Shown here: positions 7,791-64,000 of the stretch, piece by piece
Layout of the letters: each line of letters starts with the position of its first letter
Position numbering within the stretch: position 1 is the stretch's first letter
NCBI GenBank assembly: GCA_900095095.1
Contig: FMBT01000511.1
Coordinates: forward strand, 1 to 64,000
DNA: 64,000 nt
Direction: 5' to 3'
From: Fragilariopsis cylindrus CCMP1102
Taxonomy: Eukaryota; Bacillariophyta; Bacillariophyceae; Bacillariales; Bacillariaceae
Notes under the pieces: model-generated
Told to the model about the DNA's origin: nothing
The model's input: only the letters and a program-made list of their open reading frames with translations
The model's database searches: none
Program-made: the position numbers and the translations under genes

Positions 7791-9228
7791 TCAACCAATG
7801 TGTTGGTTGGAAAAACTTTCGTTGTCATCACTACCAAAAAATCGTTGATTGAACATTTCAACAATACTAGTAGCCGTCTCTTCAACTGCCCGTCCAGTTA
7901 CGTCGACTTCTGTCCAATTATACTTAGCACATAATTGTCGTACAGAACTTAAATCCTTTAATATGTAACTCCGGTCGGCATAGTTCGATTTCGGTATAAC
8001 AATATTGGACTTCATATTATTTTGTTCAGATTTTTCTTCCATATCTTTTACACCTCGTCGTTCTAATCGATTAGTACGTATTCTACGTAATTCAGTTGGA
8101 CTGATTGTTAGACAAAAAACGCGTCTCGGATCCACGTCTTTAATTAATTGGATTGGTGGTGGAACCTCCATCACCAATGGCATATTTGCAACCTTTAATG
8201 ACATAGTTTGTGACAGTACAACACTTAATGGTGTCTTTCCCGACCGACTAACACCGACTAAAACAATATCAGCTTCGGGTAATAGCCATGGTGCTTGACC
8301 ATCATCCGCTTTCAAGCAGAATTCAACAGCATCAATTCTTTGATAGTAGGAATCACCCAACTTTGACGATCTTCCACCACCACTTGTAAATAATGCAGGA
8401 ATACCTAATGGTTCTTCATCTAAAAATGCTGATAATACGTTCAGAGTTGGTCCAATCAAATCAACGTATGGTATATTCAATTGTTGACATACTTCACTAG
8501 CATGATCCCGTAATTTTTGTTCCGCTATTGTGTACATAACACACGCATTCTTATCTTTCGCTGTATTGAGTATTTGTGACAGTGTTTGTATCGATCGAAC
8601 AAATGTAAATGTTCGTGTTTGTACATCACATCTTCCCATTGCTGGAGTATCATTATTATTACCCATCATCATCATTGTCATGGTCATTTATGTTTTTCTT
8701 TGTTGCGTACGTTACTCTATCCTCGGAACAAGTATCGAATTGCGCTAATGATTTAAGTAACATCGATCGTGACATAACGCCCGTTGCATCTGAAATAAGA
8801 AATATTCGTTTGATTTCGGGATCTCTTCCGGGTGGTAAACATGAAGCACCATCATTTTCATCTTCAATATTATTATTGATGATTTCTTCATCATTTTCAT
8901 TTCCATTTTCGAAGGAATCACCGACGAGAACGAACGATGAGTTCGTCGTCGATGATGATGACGTCGCTGTTGCTGCCTCGTCGTTTTCATTATTGCTTCG
9001 CCAATGACATTTGATTCGAATAGTCTTGTTATTGCTGTACTTCTTGTTGTTCTCCTTTCTATGGATGTTTTTACTGCCTTTGGTGATAATATCGTTTTCG
9101 TCGAATGAGATTTCGATAGCGATGGCGACGGCGGCGACGATGGGCGACAACCAACAGAAGATTAAAGATGAGCGACAACAAAAAAGAATCACCCAAAAAT
9201 AGATTCTCTTCCAATGGAAGCCTTTCAT
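7791..9228 (-). CDS. PDRP1: Pyruvate phosphate dikinase regulatory protein (DUF299 kinase/pyrophosphorylase)
   Basis: About 478 residues in two frames. The N-terminal piece (9228 to about 8664) has a hydrophobic leader, a Ser/Asn/Asp-rich linker and the opening strand of the family, RIFLISDATGVMSRSML. The rest continues one frame over with the P-loop GVSRSGKTPLS and a typical C-terminus (ADRSYILKDLSSVRQLC, DVTGRAVEETA). The join at the CCC at 8662-8664 needs one base removed (or two added). The family is bifunctional: it inactivates PPDK by ADP-dependent phosphorylation of an active-site Thr and reactivates it by Pi-dependent removal. PPDK itself lies head to head 664 bp away. The leader suggests plastid or ER routing, but no AFAP-type motif is visible. 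Bacterial members are about 270 residues, so the first ~170 are an extension. Confidence 0.9.
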
Positions 9229-9892
9229 TTTTAATTGCTATTTTACCATGTATAATGGTAACGGGTGTTAGTCACTACTAAAAACGATCTGACTTGAATG
9301 AATCCTTTTCACGAACGGTCCTTTCTATGCTACGACGGTTACTGTTTCTTTTTCATTCGGATATTTCCCTATCGGCGATGGCAAATGGCATGGAGATGCG
9401 CTACTACGTCTTGTATTGAAAGAAGTCGGCGTGACACAAATAAGTGCGACTACTGCCGGTATGTGTAGTATGACGCATTCAAAAAATCACGAAAAGAGCG
9501 AAGAACGGCGATAAAACCAATCACATGAGAAAAAGTATGGCTAAAATCTAAAACTTCAATCCTATATTTAACACTAAAACTTAATAATCTTATCGACGAT
9601 ATTCCTTAACGGACAAATCAATGACACAACCACCAAGAAACGAATGAATCTCTGCTTGTCATTTTCCATTTTTTGTATTCGCCACTTGTCCTTCGCCACT
9701 TCCTTCTTTTCTTTGTACAATTTCGAAAATGTATCGTCATTATTTAGTCATCATTGTTTAACTTCTAATTTTATTCGAAAAGCAAAGAAAAGAAAAGAAA
9801 AGAAAAGCCAAGCCAAGCAAAGCAAAGCAAATACGATTCAATTTTAAAAAAAAAAGCAAAGAAAAAGCAAATTCAATTAAAACGAAGCAACC
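9229..9892. promoter_or_regulatory. Shared divergent promoter of PPDK regulator and PPDK
   Basis: 664 bp separate the two start codons. The PPDK-proximal end carries a purine-rich pentamer tract (AAAAG, CCAAG and CAAAG units, about 9781-9831) that is likely 5' UTR, and A-rich sequence up to the ATG. No clear TATA or CRE palindrome was found; a TGACGCAT lies near 9471. Co-regulation of both genes is inferred from the arrangement only. Confidence 0.6.
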
Positions 9893-12800
9893 ATGAAGAT
9901 TTCTTCCCTCGCACTTACCGCTTTCGTCCTGTTGGTGGGCACCACTACGCATGCCTTCGCTCCACGAGGAATCACAACTCTTCCTATTACTTCGACAGGG
10001 TCGTCGTCGTCGTCGTCGTCAGCAAATATCATCAACAGTGATGACAACGCCGTCTTGACGTCGTCTACTAATTCCAAGAACACGGCACTATTCACTGCAA
10101 CATCATCATCGGCTACAACAACAACTACCGCATCCGAGGTTGGTGTTGAACTTGGTTTGAAATATTGTCCAATTGCACCTTTTGGAAAGGGTGCACCTAA
10201 CGCAAATTTAGGAAATGAAGCAAAACATGTATTGGGTGGGAAGGGTGCGAATCTTGCAGAAATGTCAGATTTAGGATTAAGTGTCCCACCAGGATTTACT
10301 ATAACAACTGAATGTTGTAATAAATTTTGTAATGATGCAACATGGGATAATTCATTACCAAAACCATTATGGGATTCAATTATTAAATCACTTGATGCAG
10401 TCCAAGATGATATGTCATCCGTATTTGGTTCACCCGAAAATCCATTGTTATTATCAGTTCGATCCGGTGCTGCTATTTCAATGCCTGGGATGGTACGTAC
10501 AGTACATCGTACCTATTTATGTATTTGTTTTTGTGTGTTGTATTTATTATATTATTCCGTACACGTGATGTCGAAAGATCTTCTTCCTACAGAACTCAAA
10601 AATACCGTCATTACATTTTTCATTTGTCATTACTTCAGATGGATACAGTATTAAATTTAGGGATGAATGATAAAGTTGTTGAGGGGTTAGCAAAGAAAAC
10701 TGATAATCCAAGATTTGCATACGATTCCTATCGGCGATTCTTAGAGATGTTTGGTAATGTTGTATTAGAGATTCCACGTTCTCATTTTGAAGATGAATTA
10801 GATGATATGAAGTATGAGAAGGGTGTTAATGAAGATTCAGATTTGTCTGCAGAAGATCTGCAAGAATTGGTAACACGCTTCAAAGCTGTGTATGAAACAA
10901 TGGATATGCAATTTCCTCAAGATGTATTAGAACAATTATCTCTTTCCAGTACGTATATATAGTAATAAGAAGAAGCTCACTCGTTGTTGCGAAATCCGTC
11001 CTGCTGTGTGTGTTAACGTTATGTCAACAATTTTATTATTCCAACTCATCATAAACCGTTCCGTCATCTATCCATTCTTTTTGTCCTGGCCTTCTTTTAA
11101 ATCGGCCCTCTCAATATGATATAATGATAGTTGGGGCCGTTTTTAAAGGTTGGATGGGACCACGTGCAATCAAATACCGCGAGGTTGAAAACATTCGCAA
11201 TCTCCTTGGGACAGCTGTTAATGTACAAGCGATGGTCTTTGGTAATATGGGTGATACATCTGGTACGGGAGTTTCCTTTAGTCGTGAACCCAATATTGGG
11301 ACACGCGAGTTGTTTGGCGAATTTCTCATTAATGCACAAGGTGAGGATGTGGTTTCAGGTGTCAGAACCCTCGTCCCATCTCTGAATTGGAAGATGAAAT
11401 GCCAGAAGTTTACAAAGAATTTGTAGAGAATAATCGCATCTTAGAAGCCAAATTCTGCGATATGCAAGATATTGAATTCACTATCCAAGAAGGAAAATTA
11501 TATATGCTTCAAACTAGAAATGGTAAACGTGGTGGAGAAGCGCCGTGAAGATTGCCGTTGACTTAGTCAGTGAAGGTCTTATCAGCAAAAACGAGGCAAT
11601 CAAAAAGGTCCTACCTGAACATTTAGATCAATTATTACATCCTCGATTCCCCGATGTGGAACAAAAAGAATATAGAGATGCAGTTATAACTCGTGGTCTA
11701 CCGGCATCGCCTGGTGCAGCTGTTGGGCGTATTGCCATGTCCAACGAAAAGGTAGTGGAAAATAAGAAAAATGGATCCCATCAATTATGGTCCGCGATGA
11801 AACATCTCCCGATGACGTAGAAGGGATGTTCTCAGCGGAAGGAATTTTAACAGCTCGTGGAGGTATGACCAGTCACGCTGCCGTTGTAGCTCGAGGCTGG
11901 GGCAAGCCATGTGTGTGTGGTTGTACCGCCTTGAGCGTCGACGAAGAAAAAGGTGAAATACCTTGACTATGGACGATGGTAGTCAAAAAGCTTTAAGGAA
12001 GGTGATTTCATCAGTCTGAACGGACAAAGTGGCGAGGTGTTGGAAGGAAGTCAAACCGTTGCACCTCCAACAATCACTGGAACCCTGAAGAATTTTATGG
12101 AATGGGTAGATGATGTCCGTGAAATCGATGTATTGGCTAATGCAGACACACCAGCAGACGCTAAGGAAGCAAGAAAAAATGGTGCTAACGGTATCGGATT
12201 GTGTCGTTCGGAACACATGTTTTTCAAGCCAGAACGGATCTCTAAAGTTCGACAACTCATTCTTGGTAGCAATGAGCAAGCTGAAGAAGCCCTAAAGGAT
12301 CTTCTCAAGTTTCAACGAGAAGATTATGAAGGGATCTTTAAGGAAATGGACGGCCTCCCAGTTACTATTCGATTGCTAGATCCCCCCCTTCACGAATTTT
12401 TACCTTCATTGAAGGAAGAAAAATCCTTGCAGATTGCGCCGAACAGCTTGGATTTACCGTTGATGAATTGAAAGAAAAAGTCGAAGCGATGGAAGAGGTG
12501 AATCCGATGTTAGGTCTACGTGGTTGTAGATTGGGTATTACCCGTCCAAGTATCATTAAGATGCAAACTAGAGCTATTCTTGAAGCGGCATTGAACGCAA
12601 TTGATGCTGGCATTGACGCCAAGCCAGATATCATGGTCCCGTTAGTTGGAAAGGTCGAGGAATTCCGTAATCAAAGAGACGTAATCAAATCTGTTGCGGA
12701 TACCGTTTTCGCCGAGCAAGGAAAGTCGTGTGACTACAAGATCGGAACCATGATCGAAATTCCACGCGCTGCTCTTACCGCTCACGAAATCGCTGAAGAG

Positions 12801-16091: not shown

Positions 16092-16095
16092 TTAA

Positions 16096-16112
16096 CAGGA
16101 TTCCTGTTATGG
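16096..16112 (+). repeat. Left terminal inverted repeat, piggyBac copy 1
   Basis: CAGGATTCCTGTTATGG immediately after the TTAA at 16092-16095. With the flanking AA it makes a near-palindrome (AACAGGA T TCCTGTT). Confidence 0.88.
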
Positions 16113-16128
16113 CGCCAAGGTTGGCGCC
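16111..16128. repeat. Subterminal hairpin, piggyBac copy 1
   Basis: GGCGCCAAGGTTGGCGCC: 8-bp arms GGCGCCAA/TTGGCGCC around GG. The same site in copy 2 has arms GGCGCCCC/GGGGCGCC, so the two inner pairs differ but still pair. Confidence 0.8.
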
Positions 16129-16690
16129 ACTTTTTGGGGTCAATTTTTTGTAGGGGCATATTTCCCTCAAAAAATGGACTTAGACCCCCCTATTGAGACA
16201 CAGTGCATCTCCGTTCAAAGACACGTGCTTTCTTATTAAGTTGAAATAACTCCCGGTCACTATGTATTGGCTGTTACTACTCCGGCAGCTGCAGTCCTAA
16301 ATAAAATTTGGAAGAGCATGTGTTCAAATATAGAGAGTCGAAAAACGTGCCGGGCAACCCTCTTTTTGTTCAATATTATTATGTGACTCACACCCAAGAT
16401 TCAAAATTTGAAAAATTATTCAACTCACACGAAAAAGAGGCAATCAACGCATGGAAAATATGGATGAAATGGTCAGTCTTGTAAACTTTTGAGAAAATAA
16501 CTAGCAAAATTTACTAACAAATCCTTTTTTCAACTAAATATTTCAAATTTTCATACTAACTAACTACTAGCTTCAAATATTTTAGTCACTAGCTGTTTTC
16601 GTAACTTTACCACGCATTTTCCTTGTTATCAAAATATTACAAAACCACACCCAAAACAACCAACTTTTTTAACACTACAATGGCAATAAA

Positions 16691-19151
16691 ATGCCTCCTA
16701 AAAGACGCCCAATCAGTGTCGAATGGGCCAAATCATTAGTAGGACTGTCTATGAAGGTCCCTGATTACTGGTGGGATGGTTGCAAAGGCTATAGGCTACA
16801 TGATGGTGTTATTGATTCATATTGTGAAATCAGTCAACGCTGGAATTTATTATTAGATACTAAAGAAGATGATGCTCTCTACCTCATGGCATATGAGGCT
16901 ATCTATAAGTATGCAGACTTCGATTCCTCCACTTACAACGAGTTCCAACTAACACAACAACCTATTCGAGATGGTGATGATGAAATAGAAACAGAAACAA
17001 AAAAATATTATAGAACCGAGCCAGATGAATGGGATGAGGTTGTTATTGAAGATGGTGATACTGATACTGGTGGACGTCCAATCGAGCCGCTTGAATGGGA
17101 AGGAGATGAAGAGTTCACTGTTAAGATAACTGATGAAGAGTTAGATTCGTTAAGGGATGAAAGGGGTGAGATCAGGTTTGAGAAGGTGTTTCAATGGTGT
17201 TGTCCTAAGTTTGGTGATGATAATGATCAAACTCTATATGAATTCCAGGCTGCTAGGATGAGAAACTATATGAGGAAAAGGGTCCTTGAAAATGGCTACA
17301 AGCCTAGGTATTACAAAGGCGACAAAGTGATAACTGGAGATCATGTGGCTCGTTTCTATGGTGCTTGTCTATGTAGAATGATCCATGGAGGTCGATCGAT
17401 TGATCAGATATTTTCAACAAGAGAGATAATGGACGCTGTACCATCGATTAGAGAAGCAATGACCAAAGCTTGTTTGGAGGATCTTACTACATGCTTGCAC
17501 TACAGCGACGATTGGGATGTAGAGTGTGGTGGTGATTGGGATGACATATATGATGATCCAAAAGTTGTTGGACCACCAGGCACTGCAAAGCATCGATTGA
17601 AACATGGTCTATTGGAAGATGGGTATAATAAGGTATGTACTGTATATGTTGTTGTTGTTGTTGTTGTTTCGAATTGATTACTAACACATACCTTCCTTCT
17701 TCTTCTTCTTCTTCTTACAAGCGATGGCGAGCTATTGTCAACTTTGGCAAGTGGATTACTACAGATGAAAGTAGAGTTGGTGGCTGGTATCATAGCTGTA
17801 TGACAATTGGACCTGAACCAAAACCAATTCGAACTGGAGCTACTATTCATACTGTCTGTATCACTACAGGTCCTCTCAGTACATTCAAGTTGTTTGCTAG
17901 AGTCTATGGTGGTCAATTCGATGAAGATATTCCAGAGATCAATGATTATGGAAAATACAAGATGATCTCTCTCTATGACCTTATGCTTGATCCATTCAAG
18001 CATAAGGGTCATTGTGTTGTCATGGATTCTGCTTACATGAGTGATGCCATGTGTCAAGTTGGAAGAGAAGAATGGAAGATCAACATGGTGGGTACTTGTC
18101 AAACCAATCGTACTGGTGCTGGTAGTCTTGGTAAGGCAACTGTCGCTGCAAGAGGAATCAAGGTTGGTACACATCAATCAGTTATGTATCAACACAAGGA
18201 CAAGCCCATTACCTATGCTATTTGGGCTGATAACAACTATGTCAAGACGCTTCTAACTTTCATGGTCCTAATCTTCTAAGAGGAGGAATTCAGAGAAAGC
18301 TGAGGGATCCAGTAACACACAGGAGGAACAAGGACTTCACTGATGTCGATTGCCCTGAGCAACAGTGGGTGTACTGTCAAACATATCATTTGATTGATAA
18401 AGGGAATGGAAGTGAAGCCAAGTACGACCTATCAACTGAATCACATCTGCATGGTTGGTCGCCCAAGTTAGCATCTAGGTTTTTCAATATGAATCTTAAC
18501 AATGCCTACAACATCTACAAGTACCTTTACACCAAGTACCATCCTGATAGGACCCCAATGATAATGAGATCATGTATCAACGATTTGACTCATTCACTAC
18601 TGCAACAAGGATCCGAAATTCGGACTAGAGGCTTTGGAGATGCACCAAGTGCTACAAAGGATATTACTACTACCTCATCTTCTTTGGATGGAAGAAAACT
18701 TCGATCTGATGCATTTAGACAACATTTTACCTCCCCTACTGCAACAGTTCCTGGTACACCTCAAACACCTGCTTCTGCTATTACTGCAAGGGCGCTCCGG
18801 TATCGACAATCCGATTTTAAACGTCAAAAGGAAATGCAGCCTGGAAGGATTCATCTATCAGTTCCACTGATTGTGCTAGATAAGAAGCTCTCTTATTGCA
18901 AGTACATCAAATGCCCTGGTTTCAATACTGGAGCAAAGAGAGCAAGAGCGTATCCATCAAAGTATGTATGTGAGCAGTGTTCTATGGAGAAGGGATCCGA
19001 TTTTTGGCTATGTAATTCAATCAAAATAGTGGATGGAGTGAAGACAGTGGTTAATTGTCATGCAGCATACCATGTGGAAAAGAAATTATATGAGATAACA
19101 GCACCAGGTAGTGCTAGTGTTAGTACTATTGTATCCGAACTAACAGAGTAG
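16691..19151 (+). CDS. piggyBac-like transposase, copy 1
   Basis: Exons 16691-17632 and 17722-19151 (GTATGT donor, CTTACAAG acceptor, 89-bp intron in the middle of the DDE domain). One T is missing at 18251-18252, as shown by copy 2; repaired length is 790 residues, identical to copy 2. The N-terminal third holds WWDGCKGYRLHDGVID and an acidic stretch. The DDE_Tnp_1_7-type core includes RFYGACLCRMIHGG, ITTDESRVGGWYHS (first catalytic-type Asp), HCVVMDSAYMSD (second) and FFNMNLNNAYNIYK. The C-terminus has a Cys-rich zinc-binding module (CKYIKCPG, CEQCSMEKG, WLCN, C/H AAYH). It would excise and reinsert the element at TTAA. Confidence 0.92.
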
Positions 19152-19445
19152 TAGATACTTAACCAGGTAATATATAACCTCTATTTAATGGAGATCATGT
19201 CCGTTATCTTCTTTTCTACTTTAGTTGAGTATACACACACATACTGTTAGCATGTGTGTGGTTACTCGGAAATTTCCCATTATCAATCTTGATTTCGAAC
19301 GAAAACACCGGTATTTAGCGCGTGTTAATTTAGCGCGCTTCATGGTTTATATACTCAATCCGCTCTACTAACTTCAAGGTAATAAAAACTTCCACAGATT
19401 CCACTGAATTTGGCTAGATTGATATTATTAATAACTGAGGTCGAT

Positions 19446-46974: not shown

Positions 46975-47267
46975 AATGACCTCAGTTAATAATATTATCT
47001 TTTGAACCAGTTCAACCAAGAACTGTGGAATATTTTATTACGCTGAAGTTAGAGAAGCGAATTGAGTATATATACCATAAAGCGCGCTAAATTAACACGC
47101 GCTAAATACAGTGATTTTCGTTCGAATCAAGATTGATAATGGGAAATATACGAGTATCAACACACATGCTAATAGTATGTGGTCTTCCTCTCAACTACAG
47201 TAAAAAAGAAGGTAACGGACATGATCTCCATTAAACAGAGGTTATATATTACCTGGTTAAGTATCTA

Positions 47268-49724
47268 CTACTCTGTTAGCTCGGATATAATACTACTTTC
47301 AGCAGTACTCACTGGTGATGGTGCTGTATATAATTTCTTTTCCACATGATATGCTGTGTGACAATCAACGACTACCAAATTTCCATCCACATCCTTGGTT
47401 GAATTACACAGCCAAAAATCCTCACCCTTCTCCAAACTACACTCTTCACATACATACTTTGACCTGTAGGCTCTTTTTCTCTTTGCTCCAGTATTCTTAC
47501 CAGGACAGTTGTGGTACTTGCAATAAGCTGTTGCCCTATTCTTCTTAACAGCCACCGGTACAGATATATGATTCCTTCCAGGCTGGCGTTCCTTTTGTAG
47601 TTTAGAAGCAGCTTTACGATACCGAAGAGCTCTAGCACCAAGAACAGACACTGGTGTTTGAGGAGTTCCAGTGTGTACTGTAGGGGAGGTAAAATGTTGT
47701 CTAACTGCATCAGATCGAAGTTTTCTTCCATCCAAAGAAGATGAGGTAGTAGTAATATCCTTTGTAGCACTTGGGGCATCTCCAAAGCCTCTTGTTCGAA
47801 TTTGGATCCTTGCTGCAGTAGTGAATGAGTCAAATCGTTGATACATGATCTCATTAGCATTGGGGTCCTGTCAGGATGATACTTGTTGTAGAGGGACTTG
47901 TAGATGTTGTAGGCATTGTTAAGATTCATATTGAAAAATCTAGCTGCTAACTTGGGGGACCATCCATGCAGATGCGATTCAGTAGAGAGATCATACTTGG
48001 CTTCAGCACCATTGCCTTTATCAATCAAATGATATGTTTGACAATACACCCATTGTTGCTCAGGGCAATCAACATCAGTGAAGTCCTTGTTCCTTCTGAA
48101 TGTTACTGGATCCCTCAGCTTTCTCTGGATTCCTCCTCTTAGAAGATTAGGACCATGAAAGTTAGAAAGCGTCTTGACATAGTTGTTATCAGCCCAAATA
48201 GCATAGGTAATGGGCTTGTCCTTGTGTTGATACATAACTGATTGATGTGTTCCAACCTTGATCCCTCTTGCAGCCACAGTCGCCTTACCAAGACTACCAG
48301 CACCAGTTCGATTGGTTTGACAAGTACCAACCATGTTGATTTTCCATTCTTCTCTTCCAACTTGACACATGGCATCACTCATGTAAGCAGAATCCATGAC
48401 AACACAATGACCCTTATGCTTGAATGGAGAAAGCATAAGGTCATAGAGAGAGATCATCTTGTATTTTCCATAATCATTGATCTCTGGAATATCTTCATCG
48501 AATTGACCACCATAGACTCTAGCAAACAACTTGTATGTACTGAGACGACCTGTAGTGATACAGACAGTATGAATGGTAGCTCCAGTTCGAATTGGTTTTG
48601 GTTCAGGTCCAATTGTCATGCAACTATGATACCAGCCCCCAACTCGACTCTCATCAGTGGTGATCCACTTGCCAAAGTTGACAATAGCTTGCCACCTCTT
48701 GAAAGAAGAAGAAGAAGAAGGAAGGTAGGTAGGTTAGTAATCGATTCGAAACAACAACAACAACAACATATACAGTACATACCTTATTATATCCATCTTC
48801 CAATAGACCATGTTTCAATCGATGCTTTGCAGTGCCTGGTGGTGCCATAACTTTTGGATCATCATATATATCATCCCAATCACCACCACACTCTGGATCC
48901 CAATCGTCACTGTAGTGCAAGCATGTAGTAAGATCCTCTAAACAAGCTTTAGTCATTGACTCTCTAATCGATGGAACAGCATCCATGATCTCTCTTGTTG
49001 AAAATATTTGTTCAATGGATCGACCTCCATGGATCATTCTGCATAGACAAGCACCATAGAAACGAGCCACATGGTCTCCAGTTATCACTTTGTCGCCTTT
49101 GTAATACCTTGGCTTGAAGCCACTTTCAAGGACCCTTTTCCTCATATAATTTCTCATCCTAGCAGCTTGGAATTCAAACAGAGTTTGATCATCGTCATCT
49201 CCAAATCTGGGAAGGCACCATTGGAAGACCTTCTCAAACCTGATCTCTCCATCAATGTCCCTTAATGAAGCTAACTCTTCATCAGTTATCTTAACAGTGA
49301 ACTCTTCATCTCCTTCCCATGCAAGTGGTTCAATCGGACGACCACCAGTATCAGTATCACCATCTTCAATAACAACCTCATCCCATTCTTCCGGCTCTGT
49401 TCTAAAATATTTTTTTGTTTCTGTTTGTATCTCATCATCACCATCTCGAATAGGTTGTTGTGTTAGTTGGAACTCGTTGTAAGTGGAGGAATTGTAGTCT
49501 GCATACTTATAGATAGCATCATATGCCATGAGGTAGAGAGCATCATCTTCTTTAGTATCTAATAATAAATTCCATCTTTGACTGATAGGACAATATGAAT
49601 CAATAACACCATCATGTAGCCTATAGCCTTTGCAACCATCCCACCAGTAATCAGGGACCTTCATAGACAGTCCTACTAATGATTTGGCCCATTCGACACT
49701 GATTGGGCGTCTTTTAGGAGGCAT
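47268..49724 (-). CDS. piggyBac-like transposase, copy 2
   Basis: Exons 49724-48783 and 48697-47268, with an 85-bp intron at the same codon (K|R) as copy 1. One A is missing at TTT 47801-47803 (plus-strand bases), as shown by alignment to copy 1; repaired length is 790 residues. All core blocks match copy 1: ITTDESRVGGWYHS, HCVVMDSAYMSD, FFNMNLNNAYNIYK, and the Cys-rich tail (CKYHNCPG, CEECSLEKG, WLCN). Differences from copy 1 are scattered substitutions, denser in the C-terminal linker. The retained reading frame and perfect end repeats suggest this copy could be mobile. Its single frame break differs from that in copy 1, which argues for sequencing error in both. Confidence 0.92.
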
Positions 49725-50274
49725 TTTATTGCCATTGTAGTGTTAAAAAAGTTGGTTGTTTCGGGTGTGGTTTTGTAATATTATGAAAATACGTAAAATG
49801 CGTGGTAAAGTTAACGAAAACAGCTAGTGACTAAAATATTTTTACTAGTAGTTAGTGTGTGTGAAAATTTGAAAAAACAAGTTTTGAGAAAGTTTTGTTA
49901 GTAAATTTGCTAGTTATTTTCCAAGACTGACCATTTCATCCATATTTTCCATGCGTTGATTGCCTCTTTTTCGTGTGATTTGAATAATTTTTCAAATTTT
50001 GAATCTTGGGTGTGAGTCACATAATAATATTGAACAAAAAGAGGGTTGCGCGGCACGTTTTTTGACTCTCTATATTTGAACACATGCTCTTCCGAATTTT
50101 ATTTAGGACTGCAGCTGCCGGAGTAGTAATAGCCAATACATAGTGACCGGGAGTTATTTCAACTTAATAAGAAAGCACGTGTCTTTGAACGGAGATGTAC
50201 TGTCTCTCAAGATGGGGCTGTAGGTCCATTTTTTGAGGGAGATATACCCCCACAAAAAATAGACCCCAAAAAGT

Positions 50275-50292
50275 GGCGCCCCGCGGGGCGCC
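50275..50292. repeat. Subterminal hairpin, piggyBac copy 2
   Basis: GGCGCCCCGCGGGGCGCC, a perfect palindrome 15 bp inside the element end, at the position equivalent to 16111-16128 of copy 1. Confidence 0.85.
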
Positions 50293-50307
50293 ATAACCTG
50301 AATCCTG
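50293..50307 (-). repeat. Terminal inverted repeat, piggyBac copy 2 (transposase 5' side)
   Basis: Reads CAGGATTCAGGTTAT inward on the minus strand; TTAA follows at 50308-50311. Confidence 0.9.
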
Positions 50308-50311
50308 TTAA

Positions 50312-52021: not shown

Positions 52022-55000
52022 TCATGGTGGTAAGGAGCAGGCTGTTACTTGGCACCATTGACCAGTTGTTGGATTAGGTGAATCCATTGTGTTTGGGCAA
52101 GCAGTGTTTTCCAACATTTCTGTAGTGTTAACATTATTAGATGTTCTAGTCCATGTGGAAAGACATTGATTGAAAGATGTTGCATCTTTAAACATACGAT
52201 ACATTGTTGTTACTTGAAATGTGTTCCAACCAAAAATAGGTCTGTTAAAAGCAGATGCTCCAACAAACATACCCTGCATTGATGTTGCTTTTGACGTAGT
52301 CCAATCACCAATAGGTTGGTTGAAAGTGGATGCATTTTTAAACATAAACTGCATATTAATTACACTTGACGTGTTCCATACTGCAATAGGCTGGTCGAAA
52401 GTAGATGCATCTTTGAACATACCATTCATTTTTTTCACTTTTGACGTATCCCATTCTGCAATAGGTTGGTCGAAAGCGGATGCACCTCTAAACATAAAAC
52501 TCATTGTTTCCACTTTTGACGTATCCCAACACTCTAAGGGTTCGTCAAAATCAGATTTATCACGGAACGCATTAGCCATATTAGTAATACCTGCAGTATT
52601 CCAGCAACTGATGTTGCCGGATGGTACTAGACAATTGGTATTACCGAGACAGAGACTAATCAAATCTTGAAAACTTTCGTTATACTGAGATACATCAAGA
52701 CGTGCAGGACATAATACAGAACAAGAAGTTGGGCCAAGACTTGGTGCGCTACTTGGACCAGTAGTAGGAGTAAAGCTGGGAACACCACTTGGTGTAAGAC
52801 TTGAAGGAGAACTCGGAAGAGAACTTGGTGAAAGACTGGGCCTGAGGCTTGGTCTGGAACTAGGAGCAGTGCTTGGAACAACACTTGGGCCAGAACTTGG
52901 TGCGCCGCTCGGATCTAGACTAGAAACAGAGCTAGGAGAAGCACTAGGATTAGCACTTGGAACAGGAGAAGAGCTGGGTGCACCACTCTCGTTGCAGCCA
53001 TAATAACCGGTTGGAGCAGAAGAAGAGCTGGGTGCACCATAATAGCTCTTCCCACCTTTGCTGCCCTTCCCACCTTTGCTGCCCTTCCCACCTTTGCAGC
53101 CGGATTTGCCATTCCCACCTTTGCTGCCGGATTTGCCCTTCCCACCTTTGCTGCCGGTAGGGTTTGAGGTCACGGTGGGTATGAATGTAGTAGTAGGTAT
53201 GAATGTTGTGGGTTCAAATGTAGGGTTTGAGGTCACGGTGGGTATGAATGTAGTAGTAGGTATGAATGTTGTGGGTTCAAATGTATCAGTTGGAGTACCA
53301 GTTGGAGTACCAGTTGGAACTTTACTTGGGGACACAGATGGATCTGCATTAGGAGACGGACTTGGAACATCACTTGGTCCAGCGCTAGGTGGTTCAGATA
53401 TTGTTTCATCTGTTGGTCTTCCCGAATTTTGTGGCAGTGTTGGTGCAGGTGAAGTATCTTCCTTACCAGATGGATTTGCACTCGGCTTAAAGCTGGGTTC
53501 CAAACTAGGGACAGAACTTGGTGCACCACTCGGATCAGAGCTAGGTGAAAGACTAGGAACAGAACTTGGTGAAAGACTGGGACCTGCACTTGGGTCAAGA
53601 CTTGGAACAGAACTCGGAAGAGAACTTGGTGAAAGACTGGGCCCGAAGCTTGGTCTGGAACTAGGAGCAGTACTTGGGCCAGCACTTGGGACAGAACTCG
53701 GTGCGCCGCTCGGATCCAGACTAGGAGCAGAGCTAGGAGAAGCACTCGGATCAACACTCGGTGCTGCGCTTGGATCCGCACTAGGATCCGAACTAGGAAC
53801 CTCACTGGGAGCAAGGCTAGGGGCAGCGCTCGGATCAAGACTTGGGATGGAACTGGGTGCAGCACTTGGCAATAAGCTTGGTTCCAAACTGGGCAAGCTA
53901 CTTGGTGAAAGACTGGGACCTGCGCTTGGGTCAAGACTTGGAGCAGAACTGGGGTCAAGACTTGGAGCAGAACTAGGACCACCACTTGGAAGACCGCTCG
54001 GATCAGAACTAGGACCACCACTTGGAACTACACTTGGAAGACCGCTCGGATCAGAACTAGGACCACCACTTGGAACTACACTTGGAAGAGAGCTGGGCAA
54101 ATTACTTGGCTCCCCGCTCGGATTAGCACTCGGAATGGCACTCGGAATGGAACTTGGAATGGAGCTGGGGTCCAAACTAGGGACAGAACTTGGTGCACCA
54201 CTCGGATCAGAGCTAGGTGAAAGACTAGGAACAGAACTTGGTGAAAGACTGGGACCTGCACTTGGGTCAAGACTTGGAGCAGAACTCGGAAGAGAACTTG
54301 GTGAAAGACTGGGCCCGAAGCTCGGTCTGGAACTAGGAGCAGTACTTGGGCCAGCACTTGGGACAGAACTCGGTGCGCCGCTCGGATCCAGACTAGGAGC
54401 AGAGCTAGGAGAAGCACTCGGATCAACACTCGGTGCTGCGCTTGGATCCGCACTAGGATCCAAACTAGGAACCTCACTGGGAGCAAGGCTAGGGGCAGCG
54501 CTCGGATCAAGACTTGGGATGGAACTGGGTGCAGCACTTGGCAATAAGCTTGGTTCCAAACTGGGCAAGCTACTTGGTGAAAGACTGGGACCTGCGCTTG
54601 GGTCAAGACTTGGAGCAGAACTGGGGTCAAGACTTGGAGCAGAACTAGGACCACCACTTGGAAGACCGCTCGGATCAGAACTAGGACCACCACTTGGAAC
54701 TACACTTGGAAGACGCTCGGATCAGAACTAGGACCACCACTTGGAACTACACTTGGAAGAGAGCTGGGCAAATTACTTGGCTCCCCGCTCGGATTAGCAC
54801 TCGGAATGGCACTCGGAATGGAACTTGGAATGGAGCTGGGGTCCAAACTAGGGACAGAACTTGGTGCACCACTCGGATCAGAGCTAGGTGAAAGACTAGG
54901 AACAGAACTTGGTGAAAGACTGGGACCTGCACTTGGGTCAAGACTTGGAACAGAACTCGGAAGAGAACTTGGTGAAAGACTGGGCCCGAAGCTCGGTCTG

Positions 55001-58000
55001 GAACTAGGAGCAGTACTTGGGCCAGCACTTGGGACAGAACTCGGTGCGCCGCTCGGATCCAGACTAGGAGCAGAGCTAGGAGAAGCACTCGGATCAACAC
55101 TCGGTGCTGCGCTTGGATCCGCACTAGGATCCAAACTAGGAACCTCACTGGGAGCAAGGCTAGGGGCAGCGCTCGGATCAAGACTTGGGATGGAACTGGG
55201 TGCAGCACTTGGCAATAAGCTTGGTTCCAAACTGGGCAAGCTACTTGGTGAAAGACTGGGACCTGCGCTTGGGTCAAGACTTGGAGCAGAACTGGGGTCA
55301 AGACTTGGAGCAGAACTAGGACCACCACTTGGAAGACCGCTCGGATCAGAACTAGGACCACCACTTGGAACTACACTTGGAAGACCGCTCGGATCAGAAC
55401 TAGGACCACCACTTGGAACTACACTTGGAAGAGAGCTGGGCAAATTACTTGGCTCCCCGCTCGGATTAGCACTCGGAATGGCACTCGGAATGGAACTTGG
55501 AATGGAGCTGGGGTCCAAACTAGGGACAGAACTTGGTGCACCACTCGGATCAGAGCTAGGTGAAAGACTAGGAACAGAACTTGGTGAAAGACTGGGACCT
55601 GCACTTGGGTCAAGACTTGGAACAGAACTCGGAAGAGAACTTGGTGAAAGACTGGGCCCGAAGCTCGGTCTGGAACTAGGAGCAGTACTTGGGCCAGCAC
55701 TTGGGACAGAACTCGGTGCGCCGCTCGGATCCAGACTAGGAGCAGAGCTAGGAGAAGCACTCGGATCAACACTCGGTGCTGCGCTTGGATCCGCACTAGG
55801 ATCCAGAACTAGGAACCTCACTGGGAGCAAGGCTAGGGGCAGCGCTCGGATCAAGACTTGGGATGGAACTGGGTGCAGCACTTGGCAATAAGCTTGGTTC
55901 CAAACTGGGCAAGCTACTTGGTGAAAGACTGGGACCTGCGCTTGGGTCAAGACTTGGAGCAGAACTGGGGTCAAGACTTGGAGCAGAACTAGGACCACCA
56001 CTTGGAAGACCGCTCGGATCAGAACTAGGACCACCACTTGGAACTACACTTGGAAGACCGCTCGGATCAGAACTAGGACCACCACTTGGAACTACACTTG
56101 GAAGAGAGCTGGGCAAATTACTTGGCTCCCCGCTCGGATTAGCACTCGGAATGGCACTCGGAATGGAACTTGGAATGGAGCTGGGGTCCAAACTAGGGAC
56201 AGAACTTGGTGCACCACTCGGATCAGAGCTAGGTGAAAGACTAGGAACAGAACTTGGTGAAAGACTGGGACCTGCACTTGGGTCAAGACTTGGAACAGAA
56301 CTCGGAAGAGAACTTGGTGAAAGACTGGGCCCGAAGCTTGGTCTGGAACTAGGAGCAGTACTTGGGCCAGCACTTGGGACAGAACTCGGTGCGCCGCTCG
56401 GATCCAGACTAGGAGCAGAGCTAGGAGAAGCACTCGGATCAACACTCGGTGCTGCGCTTGGATCCGCACTAGGATCCAAACTAGGAACCTCACTGGGAGC
56501 AAGGCTAGGGGCAGCGCTCGGATCAAGACTTGGGATGGAACTGGGTGCAGCACTTGGCAATAAGCTTGGTTCCAAACTGGGCAAGCTACTTGGTGAAAGA
56601 CTGGGACCTGCGCTTGGGTCAAGACTTGGAGCAGAACTGGGGTCAAGACTTGGAGCAGAACTAGGACCACCACTTGGAAGACCGCTCGGATCAGAACTAG
56701 GACCACCACTTGGAACTACACTTGGAAGAGGCTCGGATCAGAACTAGGACCACCACTTGGAACTACACTTGGAAGAGAGCTGGGCAAATTACTTGGCTCC
56801 CCGCTCGGATTAGCACTCGGAATGGCACTCGGAATGGAACTTGGAATGGAGCTGGGGTCCAAACTAGGGACAGAACTTGGTGCACCACTCGGATCAGAGC
56901 TAGGTGAAAGACTAGGAACAGAACTTGGTGAAAGACTGGGACCTGCACTTGGGTCAAGACTTGGAACAGAACTCGGAAGAGAACTTGGTGAAAGACTGGG
57001 CCCGAAGCTCGGTCTGGAACTAGGAGCAGTACTTGGGCCAGCACTTGGGACAGAACTCGGTGCGCCGCTCGGATCCAGACTAGGAGCAGAGCTAGGAGAA
57101 GCACTCGGATCAACACTCGGTGCTGCGCTTGGATCCGCACTAGGATCCAAACTAGGAACCTCACTGGGAGCAAGGCTAGGGGCAGCGCTCGGATCAAGAC
57201 TTGGGATGGAACTGGGTGCAGCACTTGGCAATAAGCTTGGTTCCAAACTGGGCAAGCTACTTGGTGAAAGACTGGGACCTGCGCTTGGGTCAAGACTTGG
57301 AGCAGAACTGGGGTCAAGACTTGGAGCAGAACTAGGACCACCACTTGGAAGACCGCTCGGATCAGAACTAGGACCACCACTTGGAACTACACTTGGAAGA
57401 GAGCTCGGATCAGAACTAGGACCACCACTTGGAACTACACTTGGAAGAGAGCTGGGCAAATTACTTGGCTCCCCGCTCGGATTAGCACTCGGAATGGCAC
57501 TCGGAATGGAACTTGGAATGGAGCTGGGGTCCAAACTAGGGACAGAACTTGGTGCACCACTCGGATCAGAGCTAGGTGAAAGACTAGGAACAGAACTTGG
57601 TGAAAGACTGGGACCTGCACTTGGGTCAAGACTTGGAACAGAACTCGGAAGAGAACTTGGTGAAAGACTGGGCCCGAAGCTCGGTCTGGAACTAGGAGCA
57701 GTACTTGGGCCAGCACTTGGGACAGAACTCGGTGCGCCGCTCGGATCCAGACTAGGAGCAGAGCTAGGAGAAGCACTCGGATCAACACTCGGTGCTGCGC
57801 TTGGATCCGCACTAGGATCCAAACTAGGAACCTCACTGGGAGCAAGGCTAGGGGCAGCGCTCGGATCAAGACTTGGGATGGAACTGGGTGCAGCACTTGG
57901 CAATAAGCTTGGTTCCAAACTGGGCAAGCTACTTGGTGAAAGACTGGGACCTGCGCTTGGGTCAAGACTTGGAGCAGAACTGGGGTCAAGACTTGGAGCA

Positions 58001-61000
58001 GAACTAGGACCACCACTTGGAAGACCGCTCGGATCAGAACTAGGACCACCACTTGGAACTACACTTGGAAGAGAGCTCGGATCAGAACTAGGACCACCAC
58101 TTGGAACTACACTTGGAAGAGAGCTGGGCAAATTACTTGGCTCCCCGCTCGGATTAGCACTCGGAATGGCACTCGGAATGGAACTTGGAATGGAGCTGGG
58201 GTCCAAACTAGGGACAGAACTTGGTGCACCACTCGGATCAGAGCTAGGTGAAAGACTAGGAACAGAACTTGGTGAAAGACTGGGACCTGCACTTGGGTCA
58301 AGACTTGGAACAGAACTCGGAAGAGAACTTGGTGAAAGACTGGGCCCGAAGCTCGGTCTGGAACTAGGAGCAGTACTTGGGCCAGCACTTGGGACAGAAC
58401 TCGGTGCGCCGCTCGGATCCAGACTAGGAGCAGAGCTAGGAGAAGCACTCGGATCAACACTCGGTGCTGCGCTTGGATCCGCACTAGGATCCAAACTAGG
58501 AACCTCACTGGGAGCAAGGCTAGGGGCAGCGCTCGGATCAAGACTTGGGATGGAACTGGGTGCAGCACTTGGCAATAAGCTTGGTTCCAAACTGGGCAAG
58601 CTACTTGGTGAAAGACTGGGACCTGCGCTTGGGTCAAGACTTGGAGCAGAACTGGGGTCAAGACTTGGAGCAGAACTAGGACCACCACTTGGAAGACCGC
58701 TCGGATCAGAACTAGGACCACCACTTGGAACTACACTTGGAAGACCGCTCGGATCAGAACTAGGACCACCACTTGGAACTACACTTGGAAGAGAGCTGGG
58801 CAAATTACTTGGCTCCCCGCTCGGATTAGCACTCGGAATGGCACTCGGAATGGAACTTGGAATGGAGCTGGGGTCCAAACTAGGGACAGAACTTGGTGCA
58901 CCACTCGGATCAGAGCTAGGTGAAAGACTAGGAACAGAACTTGGTGAAAGACTGGGACCTGCACTTGGGTCAAGACTTGGAACAGAACTCGGAAGAGAAC
59001 TTGGTGAAAGACTGGGCCCGAAGCTCGGTCTGGAACTAGGAGCAGTACTTGGGCCAGCACTTGGGACAGAACTCGGTGCGCCGCTCGGATCCAGACTAGG
59101 AGCAGAGCTAGGAGAAGCACTCGGATCAACACTCGGTGCTGCGCTTGGATCCGCACTAGGATCCAAACTAGGAACCTCACTGGGAGCAAGGCTAGGGGCA
59201 GCGCTCGGATCAAGACTTGGGATGGAACTGGGTGCAGCACTTGGCAATAAGCTTGGTTCCAAACTGGGCAAGCTACTTGGTGAAAGACTGGGACCTGCGC
59301 TTGGGTCAAGACTTGGAGCAGAACTGGGGTCAAGACTTGGAGCAGAACTAGGACCACCACTTGGAAGACCGCTCGGATCAGAACTAGGACCACCACTTGG
59401 AACTACACTTGGAAGAGAGCTCGGATCAGAACTAGGACCACCACTTGGAACTACACTTGGAAGAGAGCTGGGCAAATTACTTGGCTCCCCGCTCGGATTA
59501 GCACTCGGAATGGCACTCGGAATGGAACTTGGAATGGAGCTGGGGTCCAAACTAGGGACAGAACTTGGTGCACCACTCGGATCAGAGCTAGGTGAAAGAC
59601 TAGGAACAGAACTTGGTGAAAGACTGGGACCTGCACTTGGGTCAAGACTTGGAACAGAACTCGGAAGAGAACTTGGTGAAAGACTGGGCCCGAAGCTCGG
59701 TCTGGAACTAGGAGCAGTACTTGGGCCAGCACTTGGGACAGAACTCGGTGCGCCGCTCGGATCCAGACTAGGAGCAGAGCTAGGAGAAGCACTCGGATCA
59801 ACACTCGGTGCTGCGCTTGGATCCGCACTAGGATCCAAACTAGGAACCTCACTGGGAGCAAGGCTAGGGGCAGCGCTCGGATCAAGACTTGGGATGGAAC
59901 TGGGTGCAGCACTTGGCAATAAGCTTGGTTCCAAACTGGGCAAGCTACTTGGTGAAAGACTGGGACCTGCGCTTGGGTCAAGACTTGGAGCAGAACTGGG
60001 GTCAAGACTTGGAGCAGAACTAGGACCACCACTTGGAAGACCGCTCGGATCAGAACTAGGACCACCACTTGGAACTACACTTGGAAGAGAGCTCGGATCA
60101 GAACTAGGACCACCACTTGGAACTACACTTGGAAGAGAGCTGGGCAAATTACTTGGCTCCCCGCTCGGATTAGCACTCGGAATGGCACTCGGAATGGAAC
60201 TTGGAATGGAGCTGGGGTCCAAACTAGGGACAGAACTTGGTGCACCACTCGGATCAGAGCTAGGTGAAAGACTAGGAACAGAACTTGGTGAAAGACTGGG
60301 ACCTGCACTTGGGTCAAGACTTGGAACAGAACTCGGAAGAGAACTTGGTGAAAGACTGGGCCCGAAGCTCGGTCTGGAACTAGGAGCAGTACTTGGGCCA
60401 GCACTTGGGACAGAACTCGGTGCGCCGCTCGGATCCAGACTAGGAGCAGAGCTAGGAGAAGCACTCGGATCAACACTCGGTGCTGCGCTTGGATCCGCAC
60501 TAGGATCCAAACTAGGAACCTCACTGGGAGCAAGGCTAGGGGCAGCGCTCGGATCAAGACTTGGGATGGAACTGGGTGCAGCACTTGGCAATAAGCTTGG
60601 TTCCAAACTGGGCAAGCTACTTGGTGAAAGACTGGGACCTGCGCTTGGGTCAAGACTTGGAGCAGAACTGGGGTCAAGACTTGGAGCAGAACTAGGACCA
60701 CCACTTGGAAGACCGCTCGGATCAGAACTAGGACCACCACTTGGAACTACACTTGGAAGAGCTCGGATCAGAACTAGGACCACCACTTGGAACTACACTT
60801 GGAAGAGAGCTGGGCAAATTACTTGGCTCCCCGCTCGGATTAGCACTCGGAATGGCACTCGGAATGGAACTTGGAATGGAGCTGGGGTCCAAACTAGGGA
60901 CAGAACTTGGTGCACCACTCGGATCAGAGCTAGGTGAAAGACTAGGAACAGAACTTGGTGAAAGACTGGGACCTGCACTTGGGTCAAGACTTGGAACAGA

Positions 61001-64000
61001 ACTCGGAAGAGAACTTGGTGAAAGACTGGGCCCGAAGCTCGGTCTGGAACTAGGAGCAGTACTTGGGCCAGCACTTGGGACAGAACTCGGTGCGCCGCTC
61101 GGATCCAGACTAGGAGCAGAGCTAGGAGAAGCACTCGGATCAACACTCGGTGCTGCGCTTGGATCCGCACTAGGATCCAAACTAGGAACCTCACTGGGAG
61201 CAAGGCTAGGGGCAGCGCTCGGATCAAGACTTGGGATGGAACTGGGTGCAGCACTTGGCAATAAGCTTGGTTCCAAACTGGGCAAGCTACTTGGTGAAAG
61301 ACTGGGACCTGCGCTTGGGTCAAGACTTGGAGCAGAACTGGGGTCAAGACTTGGAGCAGAACTAGGACCACCACTTGGAAGACCGCTCGGATCAGAACTA
61401 GGACCACCACTTGGAACTACACTTGGAAGAGAGCTCGGATCAGAACTAGGACCACCACTTGGAACTACACTTGGAAGAGAGCTGGGCAAATTACTTGGCT
61501 CCCCGCTCGGATTAGCACTCGGAATGGCACTCGGAATGGAACTTGGAATGGAGCTGGGGTCCAAACTAGGGACAGAACTTGGTGCACCACTCGGATCAGA
61601 GCTAGGTGAAAGACTAGGAACAGAACTTGGTGAAAGACTGGGACCTGCACTTGGGTCAAGACTTGGAACAGAACTCGGAAGAGAACTTGGTGAAAGACTG
61701 GGCCCGAAGCTCGGTCTGGAACTAGGAGCAGTACTTGGGCCAGCACTTGGGACAGAACTCGGTGCGCCGCTCGGATCCAGACTAGGAGCAGAGCTAGGAG
61801 AAGCACTCGGATCAACACTCGGTGCTGCGCTTGGATCCGCACTAGGATCCAAACTAGGAACCTCACTGGGAGCAAGGCTAGGGGCAGCGCTCGGATCAAG
61901 ACTTGGGATGGAACTGGGTGCAGCACTTGGCAATAAGCTTGGTTCCAAACTGGGCAAGCTACTTGGTGAAAGACTGGGACCTGCGCTTGGGTCAAGACTT
62001 GGAGCAGAACTGGGGTCAAGACTTGGAGCAGAACTAGGACCACCACTTGGAAGACCGCTCGGATCAGAACTAGGACCACCACTTGGAACTACACTTGGAA
62101 GACCGCTCGGATCAGAACTAGGACCACCACTTGGAACTACACTTGGAAGAGAGCTGGGCAAATTACTTGGCTCCCCGCTCGGATTAGCACTCGGAATGGC
62201 ACTCGGAATGGAACTTGGAATGGAGCTGGGGTCCAAACTAGGGACAGAACTTGGTGCACCACTCGGATCAGAGCTAGGTGAAAGACTAGGAACAGAACTT
62301 GGTGAAAGACTGGGACCTGCACTTGGGTCAAGACTTGGAACAGAACTCGGAAGAGAACTTGGTGAAAGACTGGGCCCGAAGCTCGGTCTGGAACTAGGAG
62401 CAGTACTTGGGCCAGCACTTGGGACAGAACTCGGTGCGCCGCTCGGATCCAGACTAGGAGCAGAGCTAGGAGAAGCACTCGGATCAACACTCGGTGCTGC
62501 GCTTGGATCCGCACTAGGATCCAAACTAGGAACCTCACTGGGAGCAAGGCTAGGGGCAGCGCTCGGATCAAGACTTGGGATGGAACTGGGTGCAGCACTT
62601 GGCAATAACTTGGTTCCAAACTGGGCAAGCTACTTGGTGAAAGACTGGGACCTGCGCTTGGGTCAAGACTTGGAGCAGAACTGGGGTCAAGACTTGGAGC
62701 AGAACTAGGACCACCACTTGGAAGACCGCTCGGATCAGAACTAGGACCACCACTTGGAACTACACTTGGAAGACCGCTCGGATCAGAACTAGGACCACCA
62801 CTTGGAACTACACTTGGAAGAGAGCTGGGCAAATTACTTGGCTCCCCGCTCGGATTAGCACTCGGAATGGCACTCGGAATGGAACTTGGAATGGAGCTGG
62901 GGTCCAAACTAGGGACAGAACTCGGTGCACCACTCGGATCAGAGCTAGGTGAAAGACTAGGAACAGAACTTGGTGAAAGACTGGGACCTGCACTTGGGTC
63001 AAGACTTGGAACAGAACTCGGAAGAGAACTTGGTGAAAGACTGGGCCCGAAGCTCGGTCTGGAACTAGGAGCAGTACTTGGGCCAGCACTTGGGACAGAA
63101 CTCGGTGCGTCGCTCGGATCCAGACTAGGAGCAGAGCTAGGAGAAGCACTCGGATCAACACTCGGTGCTGCGCTTGGATCGCACTAGGATCAGAACTAGG
63201 AACCTCACTGGGAGCAAGGCTAGGGGCAGCGCTCGGATCAAGACTTGGGATGGAACTGGGTGCAGCACTTGGCAATACACTTGGTTCCAAACTGGGCAAG
63301 CTACTTGGTGAAAGACTGGGACCTGCGCTTGGGTCAAGACTTGGAGCAGAACTGGGGTCAAGACTTGGAGCAGAACTAGGACCACCACTTGGAAGACCGC
63401 TCGGATCAGAACTAGGACCACCACTTGGAACTACACTTGGAAGACCGCTCGGATCAGAACTAGGACCACCACTTGGAACTACACTTGGAAGAGAGCTGGG
63501 CAAATTACTTGGCTCCCCGCTCGGATTAGCACTCGGAATGGCACTCGGAATGGAACTTGGAATGGAGCTGGGGTCCAAACTAGGGACAGAACTCGGTGCA
63601 CCACTCGGATCAGAGCTAGGTGAAAGACTAGGAACAGAACTTGGTGAAAGACTGGGACCTGCACTTGGGTCAAGACTTGGAACAGAACTCGGAAGAGAAC
63701 TTGGTGAAAGACTGGGCCCGAAGCTCGGTCTGGAACTAGGAGCAGTACTTGGGCCAGCACTTGGGACAGAACTCGGTGCGTCGCTCGGATCCAGACTAGG
63801 AGCAGAGCTAGGAGAAGCACTCGGATCAACACTCGGTGCTGCGCTTGGATCTGCACTAGGATCAGAACTAGGAACCTCACTGGGAGCAAGGCTAGGGGCA
63901 GCGCTCGGATCAAGACTTGGGATGGAACTGGGTGCAGCACTTGGCAATACACTTGGTTCCAAACTGGGCAAGCTACTTGGTGAAAGACTGGGACCTGCGC
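52022..64000 (-). CDS. Giant PSxx-repeat surface protein with C-terminal BspA/DUF285-type repeats (5' end outside window)
   Basis: At least 3,990 residues, running off the window. From the N-terminal side: tetrapeptides of the form P-S-x-x in a strict 56-tetrapeptide (224-residue) order, repeated about 15.6 times (64000 to about 53500). Then come a divergent Pro/Thr linker with a doubled FEPTTFIPTTTFIPT block, a Gly/Lys/Ser-rich polycationic block, and a short second PSxx block. The C-terminal domain is about 220 residues: six DUF285-like units of about 25 residues (W-D/N-T-S-x-V...M..MF...A..F.QPI), framed by Cys (SCSVLCPARLDVS). The frame breaks at about 54713, 55803, 56730, 60755, 62607 and 63180. 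Likely secreted, heavily O-glycosylated, cell-wall or adhesion-related (inference). No start or signal peptide is in the window. Confidence 0.85.
53163..53283 (-). repeat. Duplicated Pro/Thr linker block
   Basis: A roughly 60-bp unit encoding FEPTTFIPTTTFIPTVTSNP occurs twice in tandem, nearly identical at base level, inside the PSxx-repeat gene. Confidence 0.85.
53500..64000 (-). repeat. 672-bp higher-order tandem repeat (56 x 12 bp)
   Basis: The 12-bp coding unit (CCA AGT x x type) is arranged in a fixed 56-unit order giving a 672-bp period. Equivalent positions recur at 54076, 54747, 55419, 56092, 56763, 57435, 58107, 58779, 59451, 60123, 60793, 61465, 62137, 62808 and 63479; spacing is 672 except 671, 673 or 670 where the frame breaks. 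Copies in the middle are almost identical; the copies nearest the C-terminal domain and those beyond 62.9 kb carry shared variants. Confidence 0.95.

Follow-up and report, generated by a model that had tools for sequence, protein, structure and literature searches.

The contig C599 of the diatom Fragilariopsis cylindrus ends within a long tandem array coding for PSxx tetrapeptides that is joined to a DUF285 domain. This raises the question of what kind of protein is encoded there, how much of the array truly belongs to the locus and which other genes are built from the same parts. The window analysed here is the whole stretch of 64,000 nucleotides formed by positions 1-64000 of this contig, which itself ends at 69,622, and the searches covered a genome of 67.9 Mb in 818 contigs, to which the C-numbers refer. 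The reading favoured here, with rather better than even confidence, is that C599 codes for the C-terminal end of a giant stalked protein located outside the cell, which belongs to a modular family and is most likely adhesive. Each kind of domain was already known, whereas their combination and the sharing of the stalk are new; in the literature covered, which leaves out most subscription papers, no description of either was found.

Anatomy of the array and of its C-terminal domain

A 672-bp unit is arranged in tandem on the minus strand, in an array that begins at the contig end and stops at 53,491. Twenty-three successive units and a partial one, from 69,361 to 53,491, are 97.6-100% identical to the 672-bp reference unit. 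The whole array up to the contig end amounts to about 24 units, a copy number that is unreliable because two blocks of unit types are present, and 15.6 of these units (64,000-53,491) lie in the window. The unit codes for 56 PSxx tetrapeptides in a single unbroken register, 27 of them distinct; it is devoid of lysine and all its serine codons are AGT or AGC. A preliminary description, made from the letters of the window, had proposed a four-residue unit nested in a 56-unit super-repeat and about 15.6 near-identical copies of it, and both points are borne out, except that the array does not stop with the window but runs past it to the contig end. The giant PSxx protein that was also proposed stands in part: a PSxx array followed by DUF285 is present, but its frame is broken six times in the window part, and the longest PS frame listed there has 1,356 codons. 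The 5' end of the gene was looked for as well; it is missing since the array reaches the contig end, and no other contig was found to carry it. The features of the locus are collected in Table 1.

Table 1. Features of the PSxx-DUF285 gene in the window
Feature	Position	Strand	Basis or remark
C-terminal domain: Cys-containing cap, six 25-residue DUF285/PARCEL repeats, Cys-containing tail	52022..52780	minus	PF03382, TIGR02167
Short PSxx linker, lysine tract to DUF285	52781..53044	minus	translation
Lysine/glycine/serine tract, six lysines in KxxK spacing (KGGKGSKGGKGSKGGK)	53045..53155	minus	
PT/PS linker with exact 63-bp tandem duplication at 53157-53285	53156..53490	minus	
Proximal array block, 13.6 x 672-bp units, types absent from C439 and C216	53491..62652	minus	
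Distal array block, start; extends to contig end 69622	62653..64000	minus	unit types and order as C439:67001-62297
Six interior frame shifts	54714..63180	minus	each at a unit-variant position

The stalk matches the PT disordered repeat family PF04886 with 39 bits for a cut-off of 26.2, and a Pfam scan of the readable protein (E up to 1) retrieved only DUF285, PT and Collagen, without ice-binding or fasciclin domains. On the plus strand, long open frames between 53058 and 63999 of the window read LGxx, a mechanical effect of antisense PSxx codons.

The stop codon of the gene is located at 52,022 on the minus strand. The six 25-residue W..S.V..M..MF repeats noticed at the end of the array are visible in the translation, and the suspected DUF285 identity is confirmed by PF03382 (E 1.4e-57, 193 bits for a cut-off of 25, HMM matches at 52199-52615) together with TIGR02167 (42 bits, cut-off 30). 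In the available part of PMC2996958, PARCEL coding repeats are described as palindromic. No membrane segment was seen in the C-terminal domain, whose maximal 19-residue hydropathy is 0.92. A sequence search for a solved DUF285 structure gave none, as the best hits were to designed TPR proteins with E values no lower than 0.12. When the genome was searched with the DUF285 part, the self match at 100% was followed by C354 at 63%, so that no second, nearly identical DUF285 domain is seen. Beyond the diatom, at least 576 prokaryote and at least 566 viral relatives were confirmed, with 109 phage records, and because these are so many no donor is proposed. Two DUF285-PSxx proteins (L029, L032) end with glycine-rich TISGG-type repeats reminiscent, by eye, of the YadA-type heads of bacteria; in L032 this part matched nothing in Pfam.

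Several other elements lie in the window. Two copies of a transposon with a DDE_Tnp_1_7 domain, which we take to be piggyBac-like, are located at 47000-50311 and 16092-19397. The element measures at least 3.3 kb and, if fragments are counted, has 47 matches in the genome; one copy lies downstream of the DUF285 gene and extends beyond the segment used as query. At 7791-10654, a kinase/pyrophosphorylase gene (PF03618) adjoins an exon that codes for a domain of pyruvate phosphate dikinase (PF01326), an enzyme regulated elsewhere by this kinase/pyrophosphorylase. Finally, a 1,259-codon frame at 26-3802 combines a Tudor-type domain (PF21743) with a sub-threshold reverse transcriptase match (RVT_2).

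Integrity of the array and constraint on its units

The six interior frame shifts, of one or two bases each, fall at 63180, 62608, 60761, 56730, 55806 and 54714. Ten of the 672 positions vary recurrently among the units of C599, C439 and C216, and all six breaks lie on such positions. As 3.6% of the unit is within one base of a variant position, six random placements would all fit with a probability of about 2e-9. This coincidence points to consensus errors, the simplest cause being the loss of a base where reads of two unit types conflict. The single-base deletion at 63180 recurs at the same place in a C439 unit, where an insertion follows in the same unit, so the six frame shifts are not all independent. 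Near the contig end, at 68.3-69.3 kb (69622-69362 being outside the test), one of ten indels is on a variant position, and in C216 one of three, which, like the recurrent deletion, speaks against a simple reading of the breaks as consensus errors.

The array itself is composite. Outward of about 62,650, six identical units precede one that has lost a single base, an order found in C439 as well, and the block boundary at 62.65 kb has a unit of mixed type and a frame shift beside it. The distal block could result from a real exchange between two arrays or from a misjoin, and the C439 unit types with their shared deletion make a misjoin likely enough to matter. An assembly artefact, in which the stalk of the DUF285 gene is shorter and the contig was wrongly extended into the array of the C439 locus, is given a chance that falls just short of even: the run of units common to both contigs, the disturbed boundary and a contig end lying within the array among scattered indels all speak for it, whereas the unit orders of C599 and C439 diverge on the 5' side and the 13.6 proximal units are of types found in neither C439 nor C216. 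About 9.2 kb of array thus belongs at C599. Users of the genome should be aware that long-read assemblies break arrays of this kind and possibly misjoin them.

Among the 23 whole units, the mean number of differences rises from 1.0 between neighbours to 7.7 at 13 units apart, part of this rise being due to the two-block structure. The dependence on distance fits local amplification of whole units and lends support to unequal crossover as a way to change stalk length, both of which the preliminary description had favoured. The C599 array in this way shows how the length of a stalk can shift by whole units.

Comparison of the unit with seven paralogous loci gave dN/dS values of 0.44 (C19), 0.67 (C337), 0.16 (C531), 0.52 (C425), 0.77 (C631), 0.68 (C447) and 0.53 (C144). 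Over these loci, with changes shared by descent counted more than once, silent changes account for 32 of the 47 differing P codons (neutral expectation 0.33) and 17 of the 21 differing S codons (0.11), while at the two x positions they reach 7/55 and 7/63 (14/118 in total), below the expected 0.32 and 0.27. An excess of silent changes at P and S and not at x means that the P-S register is kept and that the x positions vary freely or are even under pressure to change. The silent deficit at the x positions could reflect a pressure to diversify or a counting effect. Relative to the unit, no gap occurs in C337, and gaps measure 48 bases in C531, 24 in C425 and 6+6 in C144; those of C19, C631 and C447 are mixed, some of 1-3 bases.

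These data bear on whether the array is a degenerate satellite or pseudogene that makes no protein. The six frame shifts of the window part, one of them common to C439, would agree with such decay, and strong homogeneity of repeats can arise without selection. The constraint on P and S codons found over the seven paralogous loci, the position of the frame shifts at unit-variant sites and paralogue pieces with open PSxx frames of 1,499 to 2,135 codons argue against it and make it most improbable.

Stalk units shared between genes and the ends they carry

Contig C439 (323 kb) spans a full array of 18.3 units at 55,204-67,479. Upstream of it, separate open frames that would be joined as one gene code first for an acidic segment and a single hydrophobic one, predicted to be a membrane anchor, then for K/S/G-rich repeats and a Cys-rich part, and also for two stretches of fasciclin type (PF02469, E 7e-58); downstream, an Ala/Thr-rich part follows in frame (gene region C439:54001-73000, L223, L224). 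C216 is probably the haplotig of C439, with which it shares 99.8% identity over 6.6 kb. It had been considered as the missing 5' end of the C599 gene and was rejected, being the 3' part of another gene that C439 spans. At C216:24800-27900 (L044), Cys-rich IGAGSC-type repeats recur in a PSxx context, one piece corresponding to DUF7640 (E 1.5e-42).

Paralogues listed by unit DNA are a lower bound, 38 of 182 candidates having been scored and the main array of C439 being absent from the list. In the nine loci tabulated, the best unit DNA matches go from 68% up to 98% (C337). The units shared with C19 (97.5% identity) and C337 (97.7%) sit within longer, less similar PSxx chains. What follows the stalk differs from gene to gene: DUF285 in C599 and C354, an ice-binding domain in C19, C425 and C631, and Ala/Thr repeats in C439 and C337. 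Stalk DNA may be common to genes with different ends.

The other extremity was approached through the N-terminal module of C439. Out of 96 rows, 17 places have a match that covers the first part of this module, and 15 of them (all except C303 and C459) have unit-matching PSxx DNA on the same strand no more than 20 kb downstream, none having it on the opposite strand; many of these downstream matches are just 64-75% identical and may reflect a general PSxx likeness. Two sets, C108:731877/C807 and C608/C29, look like allele pairs. The 16 modules other than C439 show 37-54% protein identity to it, in contrast to the closely similar unit DNA of the best stalk matches; for C614, the Cys part is 46% and the N-terminal part 48% identical. 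The four N-termini that were read (C439, C425, C337 and C587), selected for their likeness to C439, each contain an acidic segment and one hydrophobic segment.

In this genome Ice_binding PF11999 has 53 matches, and silicon transporters (PF03842), the mark of a diatom, have 27. A 218-residue stretch of PDB chain 6a8k, presumably the fcIBP11 protein of F. cylindrus, is found with 100% identity at C307:329421-330074. The part of PMC10992025 that is available lists fcIBP11 of F. cylindrus and shows a structure from this species by Kondo 2018. Two genes unite in one open frame a hydrophobic start, DUF285, a PSxx linker and a DUF3494 ice-binding domain, namely C513:42850-45732 (961 codons, L055) and C640:25124-27496 (791 codons, L056), and in both the DUF285 and the ice-binding domain exceed the Pfam cut-off. 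C202 is probably an allele of C513 in which the frame is lost near the end of the ice-binding part. In addition, the ice-binding domain terminates long PSxx chains in C425:69241-75186 (a frame of 1,982 codons, L063), C631:37188-40643 (L062) and C19 (L047). The only source retrieved that brings together diatoms, ice-binding and DUF285 is PMC11992049, the available part of which describes no fusion.

The DUF285 paralogues also suggest another kind of product, a soluble secreted protein of the matrix or with a cryoprotective role in the mucilage of brine channels, in which DUF285 would be an ice- or sugar-contacting solenoid. Their N-termini resemble signal peptides by eye, and in the closest relative, C354, a signal peptide followed by an Ala/Thr exon seems to take the place of the membrane anchor at the start; the lack of a membrane segment in the DUF285 part of C599 agrees with this. 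In the accessible portion of PMC11992049, no domain of unknown function other than DUF285 figures among the 100 diatom Pfam families with the most abundant transcripts; DUF285 is called enigmatic and is notably abundant as transcripts at high latitudes, and antifreeze-like solenoids are remarked upon. Unit-like stalks in the genome nevertheless often follow a single hydrophobic segment, and a soluble protein is judged quite unlikely.

The lysine tract and the silica wall

Between stalk and DUF285, the lysine tract holds 18- and 27-bp tandem repeats, and five or more of its lysines are clustered with KxxK spacing, a pattern of the silaffin/cingulin type. The strict five-lysine pattern also arises in 308 of 20000 shuffles of the tract (1.5%) and is present in 3 of 63 own-genome loci scanned, C599 included. 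By its motif, the tract resembles the silica-targeting pentalysine or lysine-enriched regions described in the available part of PMC9650480 and may bind the silica wall.

The whole protein could then be a structural component of that wall, its lysine tract and acidic PSxx chain being bound to the frustule and shaping or coating silica instead of attaching the cell. The S/G spacing of the KxxK tract, as in the lysine-enriched regions listed in the accessible portion of PMC9650480, and the K/S/G-rich stretches seen by eye in C439, C337 and C144 are in line with this. A stalk unit without lysine, the rarity of the strict pattern among the loci scanned and the ice-binding or fasciclin domains of the relatives are not, and this alternative is considered unlikely.

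A proposed stalked adhesin and its known counterparts

For the favoured adhesive protein, paralogues suggest that the C599 product would be secreted or inserted in the membrane, with an anchor at its N-terminus and the remainder at the cell surface. Its stalk would be a flexible PSxx chain with negative charge, at least 13.6 units long (about 3,050 residues), that leads to the lysine tract and then to an LRR-like DUF285 solenoid. With an assumed rise per residue, the extended stalk would reach 0.95-1.1 micrometre if it has 13.6 units and 1.7-1.9 micrometre if it has 24. The lysine tract could contact the silica wall, as its motif suggests, while DUF285 and the missing N-terminal part would contact ice, matrix or cells, the most likely role being to fix the cell to ice, to matrix or to other cells. 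One kind of stalk would join different ends, among them a membrane anchor, fasciclin, DUF285, DUF3494 ice-binding and Ala/Thr repeats. Unequal crossing-over and gene conversion would keep stalk DNA alike within and between genes, alter its length and possibly swap ends. The shared units of C19 and C337 support such exchange between genes; at C599, a misjoin may account for it. Several observations weigh against the adhesive reading: the assembled frame is interrupted six times, the distal block may be misjoined, C354 seems to lack the membrane anchor at its start, the readable protein contains neither an ice-binding nor a fasciclin domain, many of the downstream unit-like matches are no better than 64-75% identical, and the strict five-lysine pattern is rare among the loci scanned and also arises on shuffling.

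A broader proposal, put forward tentatively and with confidence well below even, is that F. cylindrus possesses a family of membrane-anchored, micrometre-long PSxx stalks with interchangeable ends, among them DUF285, ice-binding and fasciclin, whose near-identical stalk DNA serves as a recombination platform shuffling ends and lengths, a eukaryotic counterpart of the bacterial ice adhesin. If this is true, DUF285 has a role in ice or matrix attachment in polar diatoms. The DUF285-PSxx-DUF3494 open frames of a sea-ice diatom make the attachment of cells to ice directly testable.

The locus can be set beside several known systems. It shares with the DUF285/PARCEL families (PF03382, TIGR02167) the 25-residue W..S.V..M..MF repeats above curated cut-offs and a surface-type context, but here the domain is C-terminal to a higher-order PSxx array of thousands of residues, and the families define no stalk. 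It departs from T. pallidum TpLRR and BspA-type LRR proteins in that LRR_5 had no match in the Pfam scan of the C599 protein (E up to 1); Foldseek returned no hit below E 0.65 and no significant fold match. The silaffins and cingulins of diatoms have similar lysine clusters with S/G spacing, whereas most of the C599 protein is a PSxx stalk that lacks lysine and is combined with DUF285. Yeast flocculins (FLO genes) are surface proteins in which tandem coding repeats change length and recombine between paralogues, much as proposed here; they differ by their Ser/Thr-rich repeats, GPI anchor and PA14 head, and the readable part of C599 matched no domain of this kind.

The last counterpart is MpAFP of Marinomonas primoryensis. 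According to the available part of PMC4083281, each of its repeats is a calcium-bound Ig fold 104 residues long and an RTX solenoid forms the part that binds ice, whereas the C599 stalk is a PSxx chain matching the PT disordered-repeat family and the readable part of the protein has no ice-binding domain of the kind present in C513, C640 and C425. Both proteins are giant and have a long stalk of near-identical tandem repeats (of uncertain true length in C599) that is acidic with almost no basic residues, and the F. cylindrus relatives bear an ice-binding domain after their PSxx chains.
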